In this document: piece after piece, positions 10,237 to 18,424 of the stretch
Position numbering within the stretch: the first letter of the stretch is position 1
Layout of the letters: the number at the start of each line of letters is the position of its first letter
DNA from: Ignavibacteria bacterium
GTDB taxonomy: Bacteria > Bacteroidota > Ignavibacteria > Tepidaquicellales > Tepidaquicellaceae
Assembly: GCA_019187405.1 (NCBI GenBank)
Contig: JABAQZ010000008.1
Coordinates: forward strand, 62,001-126,000
Length of the DNA stretch: 64,000 bases
Reading direction: 5' to 3'
Position numbers and translations under genes: made by a program
The notes under the pieces: generated by a model
What the model was told of the DNA's origin: nothing
Database searches by the model: none
Seen by the model: only the letters and a program-made list of their open reading frames with translations

Positions 10237-10487
10237 ATTTATCATTAGTCATCGGACTTGTTGCGGCTTCACTGACTACATTTGCATTTCTTCCGCAGTC
10301 TATAAGAGCAATTAAAACAAAGCATACAAAAGACTTATCGCTTCCGATGTTGATTATGCTGGAAGCGGGAATTATTATTTGGATAATTTACGGCTTAATA
10401 ATTTCCGACATACCTTTGCTTGCGGCAAATATTATATCGTTTTTTTTTATAACATCAATTTTGATTCTGAAGATAAAGCATGGATAG
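10233..10487 (+). CDS. SemiSWEET-type sugar transporter (PQ-loop)
   Basis: 84 residues with three transmembrane helices, the size and layout of bacterial SemiSWEETs, which dimerise to form a sugar uniporter. The PQ-loop FLPQSIRAIKTKHTKDLS lies between helices 1 and 2. The start is TTG, overlapping the glyS stop as TTGA; the end overlaps the start of the Crp/Fnr gene by 8 bases (ATGGATAG). It is thus locked in translation between a tRNA synthetase and a regulator with no obvious functional link. The substrate is unknown. Confidence 0.87.
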   Translation: MNLSLVIGLVAASLTTFAFLPQSIRAIKTKHTKDLSLPMLIMLEAGIIIWIIYGLIISDIPLLAANIISFFFITSILILKIKHG

Positions 10488-11181
10488 CGGTTTATTAAAA
10501 AATGTAAATATGTTTTCCGAACTTTCGGACGATGAGCTGAAGAAAATCTATTCCCTTTCAAGTTTAAAGACTTTCGGCAAAGGGGAGATGATATTTTTTG
10601 ATACCGAGCCTTATTCGGGATTTTATATTGTTCTCGAAGGCTGTGTAAAAATTTTTAAAATACTCAAAGACGGGAGGGAACACATTCTTCATTTCGTATA
10701 TCCTTTCAATACATTTGCCGAAGTTCCTCTGTTTGAACAATATGATAAGGTAATTAAAGATGAATTTACTTATCCCGCCAATTCAATGTCGATCGAGAGA
10801 AATACGCGCTTAATACTTATAAGACCTGCAGTTTTTTACAGTCTGCTCGATAAAAACAAAAGTATGAGTTTTAAAATAATATCCGGTCTGGCAAAAAAAC
10901 TGCGTCATCTGAACAAACATATCGAAAACCTTTCGGCAGATATACCAAAAAGATTAGCTTGTTATCTTCTTGAATTGAAAACTATGGAAAACGGAAAATT
11001 TAAGGACGGGACAGTAGAGCTGCCGATAAGCAAACATGATTTAGCTGCTTACCTCGGAACCATTGACGAAACGTTATCCCGGACATTAAAAAAATTACAA
11101 GACCGTGAAATAATAGAAGTTAAAGGTAAAATAATTTTTATTAAGAATCTGCCTGCGCTCAAAAAAATCAGCACTGAATAA
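10480..11181 (+). CDS. Crp/Fnr family transcriptional regulator without Fe-S cysteine cluster
   Basis: 233 residues. The N-terminal two thirds is a cyclic-nucleotide-binding-like beta-barrel (FYIVLEGCVKIFKILKDGREHIL), followed by the long dimerisation helix. A C-terminal winged helix (about 185-222) has the recognition-helix region SKHDLAAYLGTIDETLSRTLKKL. Only two cysteines are seen (in EGCVK and ACYLLE), so it cannot hold an FNR-type [4Fe-4S] cluster. It looks more like a DNR/NnrR-type sensor, which bind haem or NO, though that ligand is inferred. It lies directly before ric, whose promoter carries a perfect FNR/DNR-type palindrome at 11338-11351, the obvious candidate target. The ATG overlaps the SemiSWEET stop by 8 bases. 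Confidence 0.88.
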   Translation: MDSGLLKNVNMFSELSDDELKKIYSLSSLKTFGKGEMIFFDTEPYSGFYIVLEGCVKIFKILKDGREHILHFVYPFNTFAEVPLFEQYDKVIKDEFTYPANSMSIERNTRLILIRPAVFYSLLDKNKSMSFKIISGLAKKLRHLNKHIENLSADIPKRLACYLLELKTMENGKFKDGTVELPISKHDLAAYLGTIDETLSRTLKKLQDREIIEVKGKIIFIKNLPALKKISTE

Positions 11182-11337: not shown

Positions 11338-11351
11338 TTGACTTAAGTCAA
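11338..11351. promoter_or_regulatory. FNR/DNR-type operator (perfect 14-base palindrome)
   Basis: TTGACTTAAGTCAA is a perfect inverted repeat of the TTGAy-N4-rTCAA class bound by Crp/Fnr proteins. Its centre (11344.5) is about 41-43 bases before the start site expected from the -7 element TATTTTTG at 11374-11381, which is class II activator spacing. No -33 TTG lies at the proper distance from that -7 element, consistent with an activator-dependent promoter. The Crp/Fnr gene is immediately upstream. Confidence 0.82.
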
Positions 11352-11373
11352 AGCATTGGGAAGCTATTAACGT

Positions 11374-11381
11374 TATTTTTG
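11374..11381 (+). promoter_or_regulatory. -7 promoter element of the ric-nos operon
   Basis: TATTTTTG fits the TAnnTTTG consensus exactly and lies 17 bases before the ric ATG, directly downstream of the FNR-type operator. It probably directs the transcript that covers ric, the cytochrome c gene and nosZ, which follow with gaps of only 2 and 39 bases. Confidence 0.6.
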
Positions 11382-11398
11382 TATAGAGAAATAATTTA

Positions 11399-12121
11399 AT
11401 GAATCATACAAAAGACGACCGCATAAACGAAATCATTTCTAAGGACTATTTATCCTCGCTTGTATTAGAGAAGTATGATATTGATTACGTTAAGCATAAA
11501 AACAAGAAACTTTCTGAAGTGTGCAATACCGGATTAAATGAGATACTAATGGAAATAAACAATCTGAAGAATCATGATTTTTACAGATTAAAAGAATGGG
11601 AACCCGGCTTGTTGTGTGATTACATAGTAAATGTTCATCACGGATATCTGAAAAAAAGTTTTCTAAAATGCATTTCAAAAATGAAAGCATTATTCTCCGA
11701 AGGCAAGAAAAATTCAGATATTCTCAAGGAGATAAAGCAAATTTATTCTGAGCTTGAAATACACTTCAAGAAAGAAGAAAAAATGCTTTTCCCATACATA
11801 AAAGAACTTTCCGAAATAAACAAAAAAATGGAAAAATATGAAGTGCCGCCGTTTGGTTCGATTTCAGATTTAATTAAAGTAATTAAAAAAGAGCATTCCG
11901 AAATGGGAGTTCGGTTTAAAAAGAACATTGATGCTTTTAAGAATGAACCGGCAAAGAGCAATCAATCGATTAAAAAGGAAGAACTATACGGAGAATTAAA
12001 AGTGTTGCTGTTGGATTTTCTTTATCATATTCATCTTGAAAACAATATGCTCTTTCCAAAAGCAATAGTACAAGAAAAGAAACTTAAAAGACATTTTAAA
12101 ATAAATAATAAAAAAAAATAG
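11399..12121 (+). CDS. ric: Ric/YtfE/ScdA-type di-iron protein (Fe-S cluster repair, NO stress)
   Basis: 240 residues with the architecture of Ric (YtfE, ScdA). A short N-terminal ScdA_N-like domain is followed by a hemerythrin-like four-helix bundle. Candidate iron ligands appear in the expected order: VHHGYL, HFKKEEKMLFPYI, EHSEMG and HIHLENNMLFPKA. Characterised members restore iron-sulfur clusters damaged by NO or peroxide and react with NO. The N-terminal domain contains a single cysteine (SEVCNTG). It is first in the operon behind an FNR/DNR-type operator and is followed after two bases by the cytochrome c gene, placing nitrosative repair and N2O reduction under one control. The C-terminus is strongly basic and lysine-rich. 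Confidence 0.88.
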   Translation: MNHTKDDRINEIISKDYLSSLVLEKYDIDYVKHKNKKLSEVCNTGLNEILMEINNLKNHDFYRLKEWEPGLLCDYIVNVHHGYLKKSFLKCISKMKALFSEGKKNSDILKEIKQIYSELEIHFKKEEKMLFPYIKELSEINKKMEKYEVPPFGSISDLIKVIKKEHSEMGVRFKKNIDAFKNEPAKSNQSIKKEELYGELKVLLLDFLYHIHLENNMLFPKAIVQEKKLKRHFKINNKKK

Positions 12122-12123
12122 TA

Positions 12124-12549
12124 ATGAAAAACAACTTATCTAAAATTGCTTTATTGATGTTTGCTTTAATTTTAACAGGATTCATATTCATTATAGGATG
12201 CGGCGGCGGAGACGATCCGGAGAAAGGAATCGGTCCTATTAAAGAAATAAAACTCGAAGCTGCAATAGACAACAATCTTGTTGCTAAAGGGAAACAGATT
12301 TTTGATTTAAAATGTGTAGCTTGTCATAAGTTTGATGAAAAGCTGGTTGGACCTCCGCTTAAGGATGTAACTAAAAGGAGAAAGCCGGAATGGATTATGA
12401 ACATGATTCTCAATCCCGATCAAATGTTAAAGGAAAACATGATAGCAAAAAATCTTCTTGCACAATATTTAACACCGATGACATTCCAAAATGTTACTCA
12501 AGATGATGCAAGAGCATTACTTGAATATTTCAGATCAATGGACAAATGA
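12124..12549 (+). CDS. Lipoprotein monohaem cytochrome c of the nos cluster
   Basis: 141 residues. The N-terminal hydrophobic signal ends in a lipobox-like IIGC (Cys near 26) followed by glycines and acidic residues. A single haem motif CVACH is at about 64-68, with a probable axial Met near 119 in LTPMTFQNVT. This is a class I cytochrome c fold. It sits between ric (2-base gap) and nosZ (39-base gap) in one operon. Clade II nos clusters often contain such small cytochromes, which are thought to pass electrons to NosZ; that role is inferred here from position. Confidence 0.9.
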   Translation: MKNNLSKIALLMFALILTGFIFIIGCGGGDDPEKGIGPIKEIKLEAAIDNNLVAKGKQIFDLKCVACHKFDEKLVGPPLKDVTKRRKPEWIMNMILNPDQMLKENMIAKNLLAQYLTPMTFQNVTQDDARALLEYFRSMDK

Positions 12550-12588: not shown

Positions 12589-14574
12589 ATGAGAAAGCAA
12601 TATAAGCTTACGGGAATGTTGATATTGATAGTATCAATTATGATATTGTCAGGTATCAGTTCCTGTTCAAAGAAAGACAGTCAAGGTCCAATGCTTAGCG
12701 GCGATGAAGCATCGAAGGTTTATATAGAGCCGGGAAAATGGGACGAGTTTTATTATTTTGTTTCCGGAGGTTTCAGCGGACAGATAGCTGCATACGGCAT
12801 TCCATCGGGAAGATTACTCAGAGTGATTCCTGTATATTCCGTAAATCCTGAAAACGGATGGGGTTATACCGAAGAGACAAAACCAATGCTTAATACTTCA
12901 TACGGATTCATACCATGGGATGACTCGCACCATTCAGAGTTATCGCAGACTGACGGAGTACCTGACGGCAGATGGGTATTTATTAACGGCAACAACACGC
13001 CGAGAGTAGCAAGAATTGATTTAAAGACTTTCAGAACAGTGGAAATAATCGAGATACCTAACAGTTCTGGTAATCACTCTTCACCGTTTATGACTCCTGG
13101 AACAGAATACGTTGTAGCAGGAACAAGATTCAGCGTTCCAATAGCAAACAAGGATGTTCCTATCTCTACATACAAAGAAAACTTCAAAGGTTCGATTTCC
13201 TTTATAAAAGTAAACAAGGAAAGCGGAGACATGAACATAGAATTTCAGCTTATTACTCCGCCTTATGATTATGATTTGAGCCATGCCGGTAAAGGACCAT
13301 CAATGGGTTGGTTTTTCTTTTCATGTTATAATTCCGAAGAAGCTCACACATTGTTGGAGGTTAACGCTTCACAGAAGGACAAGGATTACATAATGGCTGT
13401 TAACTGGAAAAAGATTGAGGAGTTTGTTGCACAAAACAAAGGCACGATGATGGATGTGAAATATGCTCATAACAAGTGGAATGAAGAAACACACATGGGA
13501 ACATCTGAAATTTTGACAAGCGTAAGAACATTGAAACCTGAGGACATCCCGGGATGTATTTATTACATGCCTTGTCCAAAGTCTCCGCATGGTGCGGATG
13601 TTGATCCGACAGGTAAATACATTGCAGCCGGAGGAAAGCTTGCAACAATTATTCCCGTTTATTCATTTGAAAAAATGATTTCGGCAATACAAAGCAATCA
13701 GATTGATGGAAATGTCGGAGGTATTCCGGTATTGAAATATGATGCATGTCTTGCAGGCGAAGTACAGAATCCGGGTCTCGGACCGCTTCATACTGAATTT
13801 GACGATAAAGGATTTGCTTATACTTCGGCATTTGTTTCATCGGAGATTGTAAAATGGAATGTTGAAACAAGAGAAGTTGTTGACAGAATGCCTGTTTACT
13901 ATTCTGTCGGGCATTTGTCTATTCCGGGCGGTGACAGTAAAAAACCATGGGGTAAGTATTTGTTGTCAATGAATAAAATGACAAAGGACAGATATCTTCC
14001 GACAGGACCTGAACTTACGCAGTCAGCACAGCTCATAGATATTTCCGGCGATAAGATGAAACTGCTTTTGGATTTCCCGACAGTCGGTGAGCCGCATTAT
14101 GCTCAGGCAATTCCGGCTGAACTTGTAACAAAGAATCAACTTAAGATTTTTAACATTGAACAGAATAAAAATCCCTATGCAATAAAATCAGTAAATGATG
14201 CCAGAGTAACAAGGGAAGGAAATGTTGTTCATGTATATCTTGCCGCAGTGAGATCTCACTTTACTCCGGACATGATAGAAGGAATAAAAGTCGGCGATGA
14301 AGTTTATTTTCACATGACAAATTTTGAGCAGGACTGGGATATACCACACGGTTTTGCCGTTATGGGAAATCAAAATTCTGAAATGCTTGTAATGCCCGGA
14401 GAAACATGCACATTAAAATGGCTTCCGGACAGAGAAGGAATTTTCCCGATGTACTGTACTGATTTTTGTTCAGCGCTTCATCAGGAGATGCAGGGATATG
14501 TAAGAGTTTCTCCTAAGAATTCAAATGTTGAGCTATCGTTTGGAACCGGTAACAAAGCTCCGGCAGGAAAATAA
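12589..14574 (+). CDS. nosZ: Nitrous-oxide reductase, Sec-dependent clade II type
   Basis: Terminal reductase of N2O to N2, 661 residues. The C-terminal cupredoxin domain carries the CuA signature C-x3-C-x3-H-x2-M at about 623-634 (CTDFCSALHQEM) plus the upstream ligand in IPHGFAVM. The beta-propeller holds the CuZ histidines in DDSHHSE, SPHGADVDPTG, GPLHTEF, GHLSIPG and EPHYAQ. The N-terminus has no twin-arginine motif; it is a Sec-type signal whose hydrophobic core ends in a lipobox-like ISSC (Cys near 26), so the enzyme may be a lipoprotein. A clear AGGAG ribosome site precedes the ATG, one of few in the window. It is followed by a GC-rich hairpin at 14583-14599. Confidence 0.97.
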   Translation: MRKQYKLTGMLILIVSIMILSGISSCSKKDSQGPMLSGDEASKVYIEPGKWDEFYYFVSGGFSGQIAAYGIPSGRLLRVIPVYSVNPENGWGYTEETKPMLNTSYGFIPWDDSHHSELSQTDGVPDGRWVFINGNNTPRVARIDLKTFRTVEIIEIPNSSGNHSSPFMTPGTEYVVAGTRFSVPIANKDVPISTYKENFKGSISFIKVNKESGDMNIEFQLITPPYDYDLSHAGKGPSMGWFFFSCYNSEEAHTLLEVNASQKDKDYIMAVNWKKIEEFVAQNKGTMMDVKYAHNKWNEETHMGTSEILTSVRTLKPEDIPGCIYYMPCPKSPHGADVDPTGKYIAAGGKLATIIPVYSFEKMISAIQSNQIDGNVGGIPVLKYDACLAGEVQNPGLGPLHTEFDDKGFAYTSAFVSSEIVKWNVETREVVDRMPVYYSVGHLSIPGGDSKKPWGKYLLSMNKMTKDRYLPTGPELTQSAQLIDISGDKMKLLLDFPTVGEPHYAQAIPAELVTKNQLKIFNIEQNKNPYAIKSVNDARVTREGNVVHVYLAAVRSHFTPDMIEGIKVGDEVYFHMTNFEQDWDIPHGFAVMGNQNSEMLVMPGETCTLKWLPDREGIFPMYCTDFCSALHQEMQGYVRVSPKNSNVELSFGTGNKAPAGK

Positions 14575-14582
14575 TTTCAAAT

Positions 14583-14611
14583 GGGGGCTTTTAGCCCCCT
14601 TATAATTTTTA
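14583..14611 (+). terminator. Hairpin after nosZ (attenuator / partial terminator)
   Basis: GGGGGCT and AGCCCCC (14583-14589 and 14593-14599) pair perfectly around a TTT loop and are followed by TTATAATTTTTA. The hairpin begins 8 bases after the nosZ stop, inside an otherwise continuous nos gene series. It probably ends or stabilises part of the nosZ transcript, giving more NosZ than assembly factors. Confidence 0.7.
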
Positions 14612-14616
14612 CTAAT

Positions 14617-15192
14617 ATGAAAAAATCGACACGTTCACTTTTACTAATAGCTACACTTGGTTTAATTGCCATTTATTTTTTTCCATTCTGGGAAATCGCT
14701 CTTGAAGCGCCTCAATACCCGGAAGGTCTTGGATTTAATATTTGGATTCATAAAATGACAGGAGACTTGAGGACCATAAACGGATTGAATCATTATATCG
14801 GGATGAAGACAATTGAGCCGGATTCCATTAGTGAATTGAGATATATGCCTTATATTCTCGGATTTCTGATTTTCTTTGGATTCATTGTATTTATATTTAA
14901 TAAAAAAATATTGCTTCTAATCTGGGTGATTTTGCTTTTAATTGCAGGGACAGCCGGAGCAGTGGACTTTTGGATGTGGGAATACGATTACGGACATGAT
15001 CTTGACCCGACAGCTGCTATCAAAGTGCCCGGAATGTCTTATCAGCCGCCGTTTATTGGTTCAAAGAAACTATTGAATTTCGTTGCACATTCTTATCCGG
15101 ATGTCGGAGGCATAATTGTGTTTGTTGTAGGTATTTTACTCATATCATTGTTAGTTTATGAATATAAATTTAATAAAGTTCAAAATGCTTAA
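14617..15192 (+). CDS. Nos-cluster membrane protein (NosB-like position)
   Basis: About 191 residues from the ATG at 14617. The reading frame opens earlier at 14581, but that ATG is part of the terminator-like hairpin and I reject it. Four predicted membrane segments: an N-terminal helix starting SLLLIATLGLIAIYFFPFWE, two in the middle (about 87-120) and one near the C-terminus. A large extracytoplasmic loop contains QYPEGLGFNIWIHKM and later YDYGHDLDPTAAIKVPGMSYQPP. Small multi-pass proteins occur next to nosZ in clade II clusters (one is called NosB), and a role in NosZ maturation or quinol oxidation has been proposed. I assign it only by position and topology. The end overlaps nosL by 8 bases. 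Confidence 0.75.
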   Translation: MKKSTRSLLLIATLGLIAIYFFPFWEIALEAPQYPEGLGFNIWIHKMTGDLRTINGLNHYIGMKTIEPDSISELRYMPYILGFLIFFGFIVFIFNKKILLLIWVILLLIAGTAGAVDFWMWEYDYGHDLDPTAAIKVPGMSYQPPFIGSKKLLNFVAHSYPDVGGIIVFVVGILLISLLVYEYKFNKVQNA

Positions 15193-15631
15193 GATTAATA
15201 TTGTAATTATCACGATATTATTTATTACTGCCACAGCATGCAGCAATGAACCCGAACCGATAAATTTCGGAACGGATCAGTGTGATCATTGCAGAATGAA
15301 AATCATGGACAAAAAATATGGAGCTGAGCTTTTAACCAAAAAAGGAAAAGCGATTAAGTTTGATGCTGCAGAATGCATGGTAAATTATCTTTCGGAGAAT
15401 AACGTTAATGAAAGTGATATTGATAAGTTACTGGTAATTGTCGTCAATGATCCGGGAAATTTTACAGACGCCAAGAAAGCAGTTTATCTTGTCAGTCCTA
15501 AACTAAAAAGTCCAATGGGAGAAAACATATCTTCGTTTTCAAATCAGAGCGATGCAGATAAATTTTTAAATGAATTCGGAGGAGAGTTGATGAACTGGGA
15601 TGGCATTAAAAGAAAAGTAACAGCCAAGTGA
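15185..15631 (+). CDS. nosL: NosL copper-delivery lipoprotein
   Basis: About 148 residues from the ATG at 15185, which overlaps the previous stop as ATGCTTAA; a start at 15158 would precede the signal peptide by nine residues. The short signal ends in a lipobox-like TAC (Cys near 19). The metal-binding core CDHCRMKIMDKKYGAEL corresponds to the NosL pattern CxxCGMxxxD, with Arg in place of the usual Gly. DAAECMVNYL and DAKKAVYLVSPKLKSPMG follow as in the family. NosL proteins bind Cu(I) in the periplasm and feed the NosZ CuZ site. It is followed after about 37 bases by nosD. Confidence 0.9.
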   Translation: MLKINIVIITILFITATACSNEPEPINFGTDQCDHCRMKIMDKKYGAELLTKKGKAIKFDAAECMVNYLSENNVNESDIDKLLVIVVNDPGNFTDAKKAVYLVSPKLKSPMGENISSFSNQSDADKFLNEFGGELMNWDGIKRKVTAK

Positions 15632-15668: not shown

Positions 15669-16946
15669 ATGAAAAAAAATTCTTTAAAAATATTAAAGAA
15701 ATACTTTTGTTTTATTTGCTTACTGAGTGCTTTATGTATTCTTGGATTCAATTTTGCATCTGCTAAAATAATTACAGTCTGCTCTGATTGCGAAATTAAG
15801 ACAATTAAAGAAGCTCTTGCTTTAAGCCTTGACGGAGACGTAATAGTTATAAAGGAAGGTTATTACAAAGAAAATAATCTTCTTGTTGATAAATCAATTA
15901 AGATAACAGGGGAAAACAAAGTTGTTATAGATCTGGAATTCGTTAATCAAGGGTTTGTAATTAAAAAGGAAAATGTTACTGTTTCAAATCTTGAAATCCG
16001 CAATATTAATGTTAATTATATTCAGGATCTGTCTGCAATAAGAGTAGAATATACCAGAGGTTGCACAATTGAAAATAATAAAATATACAATTCATTTTTT
16101 GCTGTTTATCTTGCAGAATCCAAAGACTGCATTATCAGAAACAACATAATAAAGGGAGATGCAAAATCGGAATCTTCTTCGGGTAACGGGATTCATCTGT
16201 GGAACTGCAGTAATATTCTAATAGAAAAAAACGAAACCTCCGGTCATAGAGATGGTATTTACCTTGAGTTTTTAAAGAATTCAAAATTAAATGGCAATTA
16301 CAGCCACAATAATTTGCGTTACGGTATGCACTTCATGTTCTCAGATAGTAATGCATATACAAAAAATGTATTTCGTGAAAACGGAGCTGGCGTCGCAGTG
16401 ATGTACACAAAATATACCGAAATGAGAGAGAACAGATTTGAGGATAACTGGGGACCTGCATCTTACGGCATTCTGATGAAAGACATATCAAACAGCATTA
16501 TTATGAGAAATACTTTTTATAAAAATACGACAGCTGTTTACTTGGAAGGTTCAGATATGCTTCAGATAACAGCCAACAATTTTATTGAAAACGGCTGGGC
16601 AATGAAAATATTAGGCAACAGTCTTAATAATACTATCATCAGCAATAATTTTGAGGGAAACACATTCGATGTGTCATCAAACAGTACAAGAAACGAGAAC
16701 GTATATCAGTGGAATTACTGGGACAAGTATGAAGGATATGATATGAATAAAGATGACATTGGGGATGTTTCTTACCGGCCGGTAAGTTTATATTCAATGC
16801 TTATAGAAAAAATTCCGGAAAGCATAATACTTTTGAGAAGTTTGATTACCGATATTCTCGATGTAACCGAAAAAGTTTTACCTGTATTTATTCCAGAAAC
16901 TTTAGTTGACAATAGTCCGAGGATGATTAAATACAAATATGATTGA
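15669..16946 (+). CDS. nosD: NosD periplasmic copper-cluster assembly protein
   Basis: 425 residues. A signal peptide (basic MKKNSLKILKK start, hydrophobic core, cleavage near FASAKI) is followed by a right-handed parallel beta-helix with many PbH1-type repeats. Repeats such as IENNKIYNSFF, IRNNIIKGD, YGMHFMFSDSN and NTIISNNFEGN run through about residues 75-345. NosD cooperates with the NosFY ABC transporter in assembly of the NosZ CuZ centre. The C-terminal tail ends in a hydrophobic segment near IPESIILLRSLITDIL. The stop overlaps the nosF start by 8 bases (ATGATTGA), indicating coupled translation. Confidence 0.93.
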   Translation: MKKNSLKILKKYFCFICLLSALCILGFNFASAKIITVCSDCEIKTIKEALALSLDGDVIVIKEGYYKENNLLVDKSIKITGENKVVIDLEFVNQGFVIKKENVTVSNLEIRNINVNYIQDLSAIRVEYTRGCTIENNKIYNSFFAVYLAESKDCIIRNNIIKGDAKSESSSGNGIHLWNCSNILIEKNETSGHRDGIYLEFLKNSKLNGNYSHNNLRYGMHFMFSDSNAYTKNVFRENGAGVAVMYTKYTEMRENRFEDNWGPASYGILMKDISNSIIMRNTFYKNTTAVYLEGSDMLQITANNFIENGWAMKILGNSLNNTIISNNFEGNTFDVSSNSTRNENVYQWNYWDKYEGYDMNKDDIGDVSYRPVSLYSMLIEKIPESIILLRSLITDILDVTEKVLPVFIPETLVDNSPRMIKYKYD

Positions 16947-17661
16947 AATAAAAAACTTAAATAAGTACTACGGGAAGTTTCATGTGTTAAAAAATCTTGA
17001 CCTGAATTTAGAAAAAGGCGAGATAGTTGCATTGATGGGTCCCAACGGTTCGGGCAAGACTACTTTGATGAAATCAATACTTGGACTTGTCATTCCCGAT
17101 AAAGGAGAAATAAAAGTAAATCAAATCAGTGTAAAAAATAACAGCAGTTACAGGAAAATAATCGGATACATGCCGCAGATTGCAAACTATCCCGAGAATC
17201 TTAAAGTGAGCGAACTTTTCAAACTTATAAGAGATATAAGAGGCGGTGATGATTCTCCGGACAAAGAACTCATTGCTGACTTCAGGATTGAAGAAATTTA
17301 TAACAAAAATTTCGGGCAATTATCCGGAGGATATAAGCAAAGAGTTACTGCAGCAATTGCTTTCATGCATAAACCTTCGCTGCTGATACTCGATGAACCC
17401 ACTTCAAGTCTGGATCCTTTATCTTCTGAAATCATGAAGAGTAAAATTTTGAAAGAGAAAAAGGAAAGCAATCTTATTTTTGTATCTTCTCATATTGCTT
17501 CCGAAGTCGAACTAATTGCAGACAGAATAATTTATATGCTTGAGGGTAAGATTATTCTTAATACGTTGATCAAAAATATCAAAAACGGAGCAACGGAATT
17601 TAAACTGGGAAAAGCATTAAAAGATTTGATAGACATGAAAATCAAAGAAAAAAATGATTAA
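16939..17661 (+). CDS. nosF: NosF ABC transporter ATPase
   Basis: 240-residue ATP-binding subunit. Walker A is GPNGSGKTT, the signature motif is LSGGYKQR, Walker B is LLILDEPTSSLDP, and the switch His is in VSSHIASEVE. With NosY it forms the inner-membrane exporter thought to supply a sulfur species through NosD for the CuZ cluster. It overlaps both neighbours by 8 bases (nosD at its start, nosY at its end). Confidence 0.94.
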   Translation: MIEIKNLNKYYGKFHVLKNLDLNLEKGEIVALMGPNGSGKTTLMKSILGLVIPDKGEIKVNQISVKNNSSYRKIIGYMPQIANYPENLKVSELFKLIRDIRGGDDSPDKELIADFRIEEIYNKNFGQLSGGYKQRVTAAIAFMHKPSLLILDEPTSSLDPLSSEIMKSKILKEKKESNLIFVSSHIASEVELIADRIIYMLEGKIILNTLIKNIKNGATEFKLGKALKDLIDMKIKEKND

Positions 17662-18424
17662 AAAAATTTTTAAATATGTAGTATTTGAACTGATACGCAG
17701 CCGGATAGTCTGGGCTTATGCGGTTTTTCTTTTATTGTCAACATTGGGTCTTTTTTATCTGGGGCAAAATTCATCCAAGACTGTTATAAGTATTTTGAAT
17801 ATCATCTTATTTATAATTCCGCTTGTAAGCATAATTTTCGGTACTATTCATTTATACAATTCAAAAGAATTTATTGAATTTTTACTGACACAGCCTGTAG
17901 ACAGAAAGACAGTTTACTGGTCTGAATATTTTGGACTTGCCTGCGTGTTTTCATTTGTATTTACAATTTGTACAGGAATTCCCGTTCTGATTTTTAACTT
18001 TTCATTTACGTCGATATATCTAATAACATCGGGAATTATACTGACTTTTGTATTTATATCTCTTGCATTCCTGTCATCAGTAATAAACAACGATAAAGTT
18101 AAAGGTATTGGATTATCAATTATCTTATGGCTTTATTTTGCAATTATATTTGACGGGCTGATAATGTCAGTGTTTTATTTATTCAGAGATTATCCGCTTG
18201 AAAAAATCATAATTTTCTTAACCTCTCTGAATCCGGTGGATTTGTCCAGAGTGATGGTGATATTGCAGACGGATGTTTCTGCAATGATGGGATTTTCCGG
18301 AGCTACAATTCAAAACTATATGGGGAGTTTTACGGGAAAGGTTTATGCATTTGCCATTTTGATACTTTGGATATTGATACCTTCTTATATTTCTTACAAA
18401 ATATTCAGCAGAAAGAATTTCTGA
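17654..18424 (+). CDS. nosY: NosY ABC transporter permease
   Basis: 256 residues with about six transmembrane helices, from the N-terminal ELIRSRIVWAYAVFLLLSTLG through to a final helix near the C-terminus. The FIEFLLTQPVDRKTVYWSEYFGL segment is typical of ABC-2 type permeases such as NosY. It is the partner of NosF and the last gene of the nos operon. It starts inside nosF with an 8-base overlap (ATGATTAA) and is followed by a strong bidirectional terminator. Confidence 0.92.
   Translation: MIKKIFKYVVFELIRSRIVWAYAVFLLLSTLGLFYLGQNSSKTVISILNIILFIIPLVSIIFGTIHLYNSKEFIEFLLTQPVDRKTVYWSEYFGLACVFSFVFTICTGIPVLIFNFSFTSIYLITSGIILTFVFISLAFLSSVINNDKVKGIGLSIILWLYFAIIFDGLIMSVFYLFRDYPLEKIIIFLTSLNPVDLSRVMVILQTDVSAMMGFSGATIQNYMGSFTGKVYAFAILILWILIPSYISYKIFSRKNF

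Follow-up and report, generated by a model that had tools for sequence, protein, structure and literature searches.

The described systems closest to the locus reported here belong to the Crp/Fnr family of regulators. HcpR is encoded divergently from hcp and recognizes the motif wyTTGACnnnnGTCAArw, the core of which is TTGACnnnnGTCAA (Rodionov et al., 2005; PMC1274295). DNR, known from Pseudomonas and other denitrifiers, is described in the literature as the sister branch of HcpR1. For regulators of the CRP/FNR type in general, a site with a fixed centre at -41.5 in a promoter without a -33 element is the signature of class II activation.

We analyzed a 64,000-nt stretch of an Ignavibacteria genome (hereafter, the window), in which a Crp/Fnr-family gene is followed by a palindrome and an operon that runs from ric, encoding a RIC/YtfE-like protein, through the nos genes. 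The regulator shares with HcpR (HcpR1 branch) its sequence kinship, the lack of FNR cysteines, the motif TTGACnnnnGTCAA, the LGTIxETLSR recognition helix, and a nitrogen-oxide theme; it differs in that its order is without hcp, in its predicted targets (ric-nos, nrfHA, nirK-like and other genes), and in the strict class II placement of its sites 22 bp (N22) before TAnnTTTG promoters. DNR, which controls nos and other denitrification genes, resembles it in its FNR-like box and in fold and may resemble it in part of its targets, but is more distant in sequence and has its own motif (TTGATnnnnATCAA) and proteobacterial promoters. With E. coli FNR it has in common the E..SR contacts to a TTGA half-site and a class II site near -41.5, whereas the Fe-S cysteines of FNR are absent from the window regulator and identity is low (24%). 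The features of the locus, in window coordinates, are as follows.

10480–11181, plus strand: Crp/Fnr-family regulator, 233 aa, HcpR-like branch (Pfam HTH_Crp_2, cNMP_binding)
11338–11351, no strand assigned: predicted operator TTGACTTAAGTCAA, a perfect palindrome centred at -41.5
11352–11373, plus strand: spacer of 22 bp, without a TTG where a -33 element would usually lie
11374–11381, plus strand: Bacteroidota-type -7 box TATTTTTG (TAnnTTTG), implying +1 at 11386
11399–12121, plus strand: RIC/YtfE-like di-iron (hemerythrin) protein (89 bits, below the curated RIC cut-off of 204.7)
12124–12549, plus strand: lipoprotein-type cytochrome c
12589–14574, plus strand: NosZ, the Sec-dependent (clade II) nitrous oxide reductase (TIGR04246, 931 bits, cut-off 625)
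14581–15192, plus strand: nos-operon membrane protein between nosZ and nosL, 203 aa (no family match in Pfam or NCBIfam)
15158–15631, plus strand: NosL (PF05573)
15669–16946, plus strand: NosD (TIGR04247)
16939–17661, plus strand: NosF-like ABC ATPase (PF00005)
17654–18424, plus strand: NosY-like ABC permease (PF12679)

An earlier note on this DNA had described a full palindrome about 42 bases upstream of a start site predicted from an exact TAnnTTTG element, with no -33 TTG, and each of these details holds. TTGACTTAAGTCAA is identical to its own reverse complement, and TATTTTTG begins 22 bases past the end of the palindrome. A mapped transcriptome of a flavobacterium places the TAnnTTTG box at -12 to -5 (PMC9723704). 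With this convention, transcription is predicted to start at 11386, 13 bases upstream of the ric ATG, and the centre of the operator is at -41.5. The sole nearby TTG (11356–11358) is misplaced for a -33 element, at -30 to -28, and none of 24 orthologous ric promoters has a -33-like TTG 17–21 bp before the box; a TTG at -33-like spacing is present in 8 of 37 non-ric promoters with the operator. The spacer is poorly kept among relatives. By information content, only two blocks are conserved in the 24 ric promoters, from -48 to -35 and from -12 to -5, and both recur independently in the 37 non-ric promoters. A sigma-70 promoter scan gave background level only. With its -41.5 centre and dispensable -33/-35 element, the ric promoter is of the class II Crp/Fnr type, as judged from a start placed by the -7 box. 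Because no terminator was seen ahead of the ric-nos operon, transcripts of the regulator gene may also extend into it.

Within the window, the motif TTGAYN4RTCAA is compatible with chance and uninformative alone (one observed, 0.92 expected). The whole genome contains 35 occurrences, compared with 15 for a reversed control; the majority are intragenic and without a box, and only two, the TTGACTTAAGTCAA site and a TTGATTTAAGTCAA site, have TAnnTTTG at N22. When 25 spacings between TTGACN4GTCAA and TAnnTTTG were allowed across 44 genomes of the order, 39 of 43 matches fell at exactly N22 (P about 3e-50, a value that assumes equiprobable spacings and independent matches, although related genomes are not independent). 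The Y/R form of the pattern, at spacings of 20–24 in the same genomes, gave N22 in 61 of 65 matches, with few in the reversed control. A survey of 294 genomes from the class showed that the N22 form of the motif hardly occurs outside this order; it is almost absent from neighbouring Ignavibacteria families with related regulators (L196–L207), and the regulon therefore seems confined to the order. On this comparison of genomes, the site is a genuine and evolutionarily conserved putative operator, whose significance comes from its conservation and not from the window.

Of the 44 genomes, 33 encode an orthologue of the window regulator (E below 1e-40). The exact motif is present in 27 of these 33, vs one of the 11 regulator-negative genomes (P = 3e-5, with genomes treated as independent), and that one genome (G041) is 75% complete, with its site 206 bases from a contig end. 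All six regulator-positive genomes without the exact motif (G003, G004, G006, G013, G018, G020) have a palindrome before ric, with one mismatch in G013, and a near -7 box, most of the TAnnTTTA type. Three genomes with nosZ and no regulator (G010, G026, G027) have cytc-nosZ clusters that contain neither palindrome nor ric. Shared neighbourhood is not the cause of this link, because it holds where regulator and site are on different contigs (G001, G016, G034) or 29 kb apart (G035).

The recognition helix of the window regulator, ETLSR, includes E197, S200 and R201, which are invariant in the regulator family alignment and which we take, from FNR biochemistry, to be FNR-type contacts reading TTGA. 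As the first reading had it, the Crp/Fnr protein encoded directly upstream lacks the FNR cysteine cluster: the four-cysteine 4Fe-4S motif is absent from the alignment, and the two cysteines of the window protein, Cys54 and Cys161, are both variable in the family. The palindrome is very probably the operator of this HcpR-like protein, predicted from sequence to serve class II activation of ric-nos. The proposal of an activator-dependent switch is supported on comparative grounds, by the class II spacing, the tie between operator and neighbouring regulator, the -33-less promoter, and the nitrogen-oxide targets.

To which branch the regulator belongs is indicated by several comparisons. A profile scan of bacterial genomes with the regulator alignment (A1) recovered Ignavibacteria first; next came proteins of Desulfobacterota and of two cyanobacteria, in which the LGTIxETLSR helix is also present. 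These nearest kin beyond Ignavibacteria share 34–41% identity with the window regulator (138–156 bits), and the four DNR-type proteins tested by BLAST share about 26–30% (73–98 bits). Placed relative to the regulators by coordinates, an hcp gene is present in 19 of 46 regulator loci checked, in 18 of them divergent and within 0.5 kb, both cyanobacteria included. The operator matches the HcpR motif TTGACnnnnGTCAA across the order. In the tree, three DNRs split from the HcpR-like set with support of 94/96, just under the tool's mark, affiliation to the larger HcpR clade has weak support (82/52), and one Thermus DNR falls inside the HcpR-like set on a long branch. By BLAST and tree, the regulator thus groups with hcp-linked Crp/Fnr regulators, with moderate support, and does not cluster with proteobacterial DNR, for which few sequences were used. 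The earlier label of an FNR/DNR-type operator is replaced accordingly, since the nearest proteins are of the HcpR type, the published HcpR motif is the one found, and DNR is more distant.

An unlikely alternative is that the regulator is a true DNR like that of Pseudomonas and came with the denitrification genes. DNR is its best structure match, both by fold and by PDB sequence, which agrees with a sister relationship of HcpR1 and DNR; yet BLAST scores to the hcp-linked set are at least 40 bits above those to the four DNR-type proteins, the tree separates the DNRs, and the inner motif position is C/G, as in HcpR, vs T/A in DNR. Across the order, a convincing hcp is lacking: nothing in the 44 genomes scores above the cut-off. 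Because the control of hcp/frdX that marks HcpR is not found here, we name the regulator HcpR-like rather than HcpR, and for the same reason the HcpR-like branch seems to have been re-targeted in this order to respiratory nitrogen-oxide genes.

A more doubtful alternative assigns the palindrome to another Crp/Fnr protein of the same genome, encoded at contig C9 or C12. With their N-terminal cysteines, both paralogues might act as oxygen sensors, and the genome does contain further palindromes at the N22 distance, but these use different half-sites (GTGAT, ATGAY), one GTGAT site lying beside the C9 paralogue. The recognition helices of the paralogues (RETATR, ETTIR) also differ from that of the window regulator, and three genomes with a distant paralogue and no orthologue of the window regulator (G002, G010, G011) have no motif. 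That the bound dimer blocks the promoter is the least probable reading, for although HcpR2 of Desulfovibrio desulfuricans has been proposed as an hcp repressor (PMC5701242), the ric promoter has the fixed -41.5 centre and absent -33 of class II activation.

The other palindromes form sets of their own. Those of the form GTGATnnnnATCAC, including one half-site variant, stand 22 bp before a perfect TAnnTTTG at C9:10195-10238 (-), C9:33651 (-), C9:34153 (+) and C10:48948 (+) (loci L155–L157); one adjoins the second Crp/Fnr gene, and the sites, as sequences, suggest a further class II regulon that uses its own half-site. ATGAYnnnnRTCAT-like palindromes at N22 precede NuoE/F, heterodisulfide reductase and TonB receptor lookalikes, and TTGATTCACGTCAT precedes a CcoI-like copper ATPase (all names by eye); these sites, at C1:52348 (+), C1:93353 (-), C4:156783 (-) and C12:58843 (-) (loci L158–L160, L163), likely mark a third Crp/Fnr regulon.

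The predicted targets of the HcpR-like regulator, taken as the genes directly downstream of N22 sites in the 44 genomes, are listed below.

ric then cytochrome c: 24 genes, with 21 cytochrome c partners seen
nrfH or nrfHA: 11
353–371 aa multi-pass membrane protein: 10 genomes (L136, L138, L139, L141–L145, L147, L149)
small cupin: 6
fasciclin lipoprotein: 5
porin-like protein: 4, twice followed by nrfH
NirK-like copper oxidase: 2
4Fe-4S protein: 1

NrfH scores above its curated cut-off and NrfA above one; the NirK-like protein scores below its own (146 vs 296 bits), and its name is tentative. Denitrification-type targets include nos and nirK-like genes, and nor is not among them. A representative of the 353–371 aa membrane protein matched nothing in Pfam or NCBIfam, and a likeness to NnrS, seen by eye, was set aside. 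In the RIC-like protein of the window, as in its close relatives, the CC motif of ScdA_N is gone (DYVKHKNK-type here, DFCCGG in family f2), and the hemerythrin His/Glu residues are retained.

Genomes without nosZ keep the palindrome before ric, and the distribution of sites therefore indicates that ric, with its cytochrome c, is the core target and that nos rides in the ric operon. The idea of a switch for NO repair and N2O reduction fits the ric-nos operon, which carries the operator, and needs this shift of emphasis to ric; the predicted switch also reaches beyond this locus. The genome's other site, TTGATTTAAGTCAA, precedes a fasciclin-domain lipoprotein (L035 5134-5676, G000 contig C27), an exact target here and in four relatives, with the domain assigned from a relative's homologue. 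Relatives have sites before nrfHA, nirK-like and cupin genes, and in several genomes the regulator is not adjacent. The earlier note had recommended a scan for TTGAy-N4-rTCAA before other nitrogen-oxide genes; such genes carry the site in relatives (nrfHA, nirK-like). In the genome itself the fasciclin gene is the only further target with the N22 layout, and no operator precedes the genome's own nrfHA, so the regulon varies between genomes.

Given the operator, its spacing and conservation, the co-occurring regulator, and the targets, we infer the following course of events. A dimer of the regulator would bind TTGACTTAAGTCAA, with its centre at -41.5, directly next to RNA polymerase on the upstream side, and at a promoter with a -7 box and no -33 it would recruit the polymerase by class II contacts. 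Transcription would then start near 11386 and proceed through the ric-cytc-nosZ-...-nosLDFY operon, so that repair of NO damage and N2O respiration may be switched on together. Nitric oxide is the probable inducer, to judge from the relationship to HcpR and DNR and from the presence of ric, nrf and nos among the targets. Heme involvement is possible on the basis of the same relationship; alignments of the regulator family contain no invariant His, Cys or Met, assignment of a heme ligand by conservation failed, and we do not claim heme because no ligand residue is conserved.

In the open literature, with subscription papers outside the search, we found no report of nos regulation in Ignavibacteria or of HcpR control of nosZ, and little on the control of nosZ in clade II carriers outside Proteobacteria. 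The components described here are of known kinds; their combination, the shift of targets, and the strict geometry are new. We consider it an evenly balanced proposition that an HcpR-branch NO regulator lost hcp and was re-targeted order-wide to a regulon of NO repair, N2O respiration and nitrite ammonification, and that several Crp/Fnr paralogues share one rigid design (operator, 22 bp, TAnnTTTG, no -33), in which the half-site alone separates the regulons. With these predictions, an uncultured group of Ignavibacteria gains a named regulator, an operator, a promoter geometry and a target list, and its N2O reduction is tied to ammonification and to NO stress. Because the geometry is fixed, activator-dependent promoters of Bacteroidota would also become predictable from sequence.
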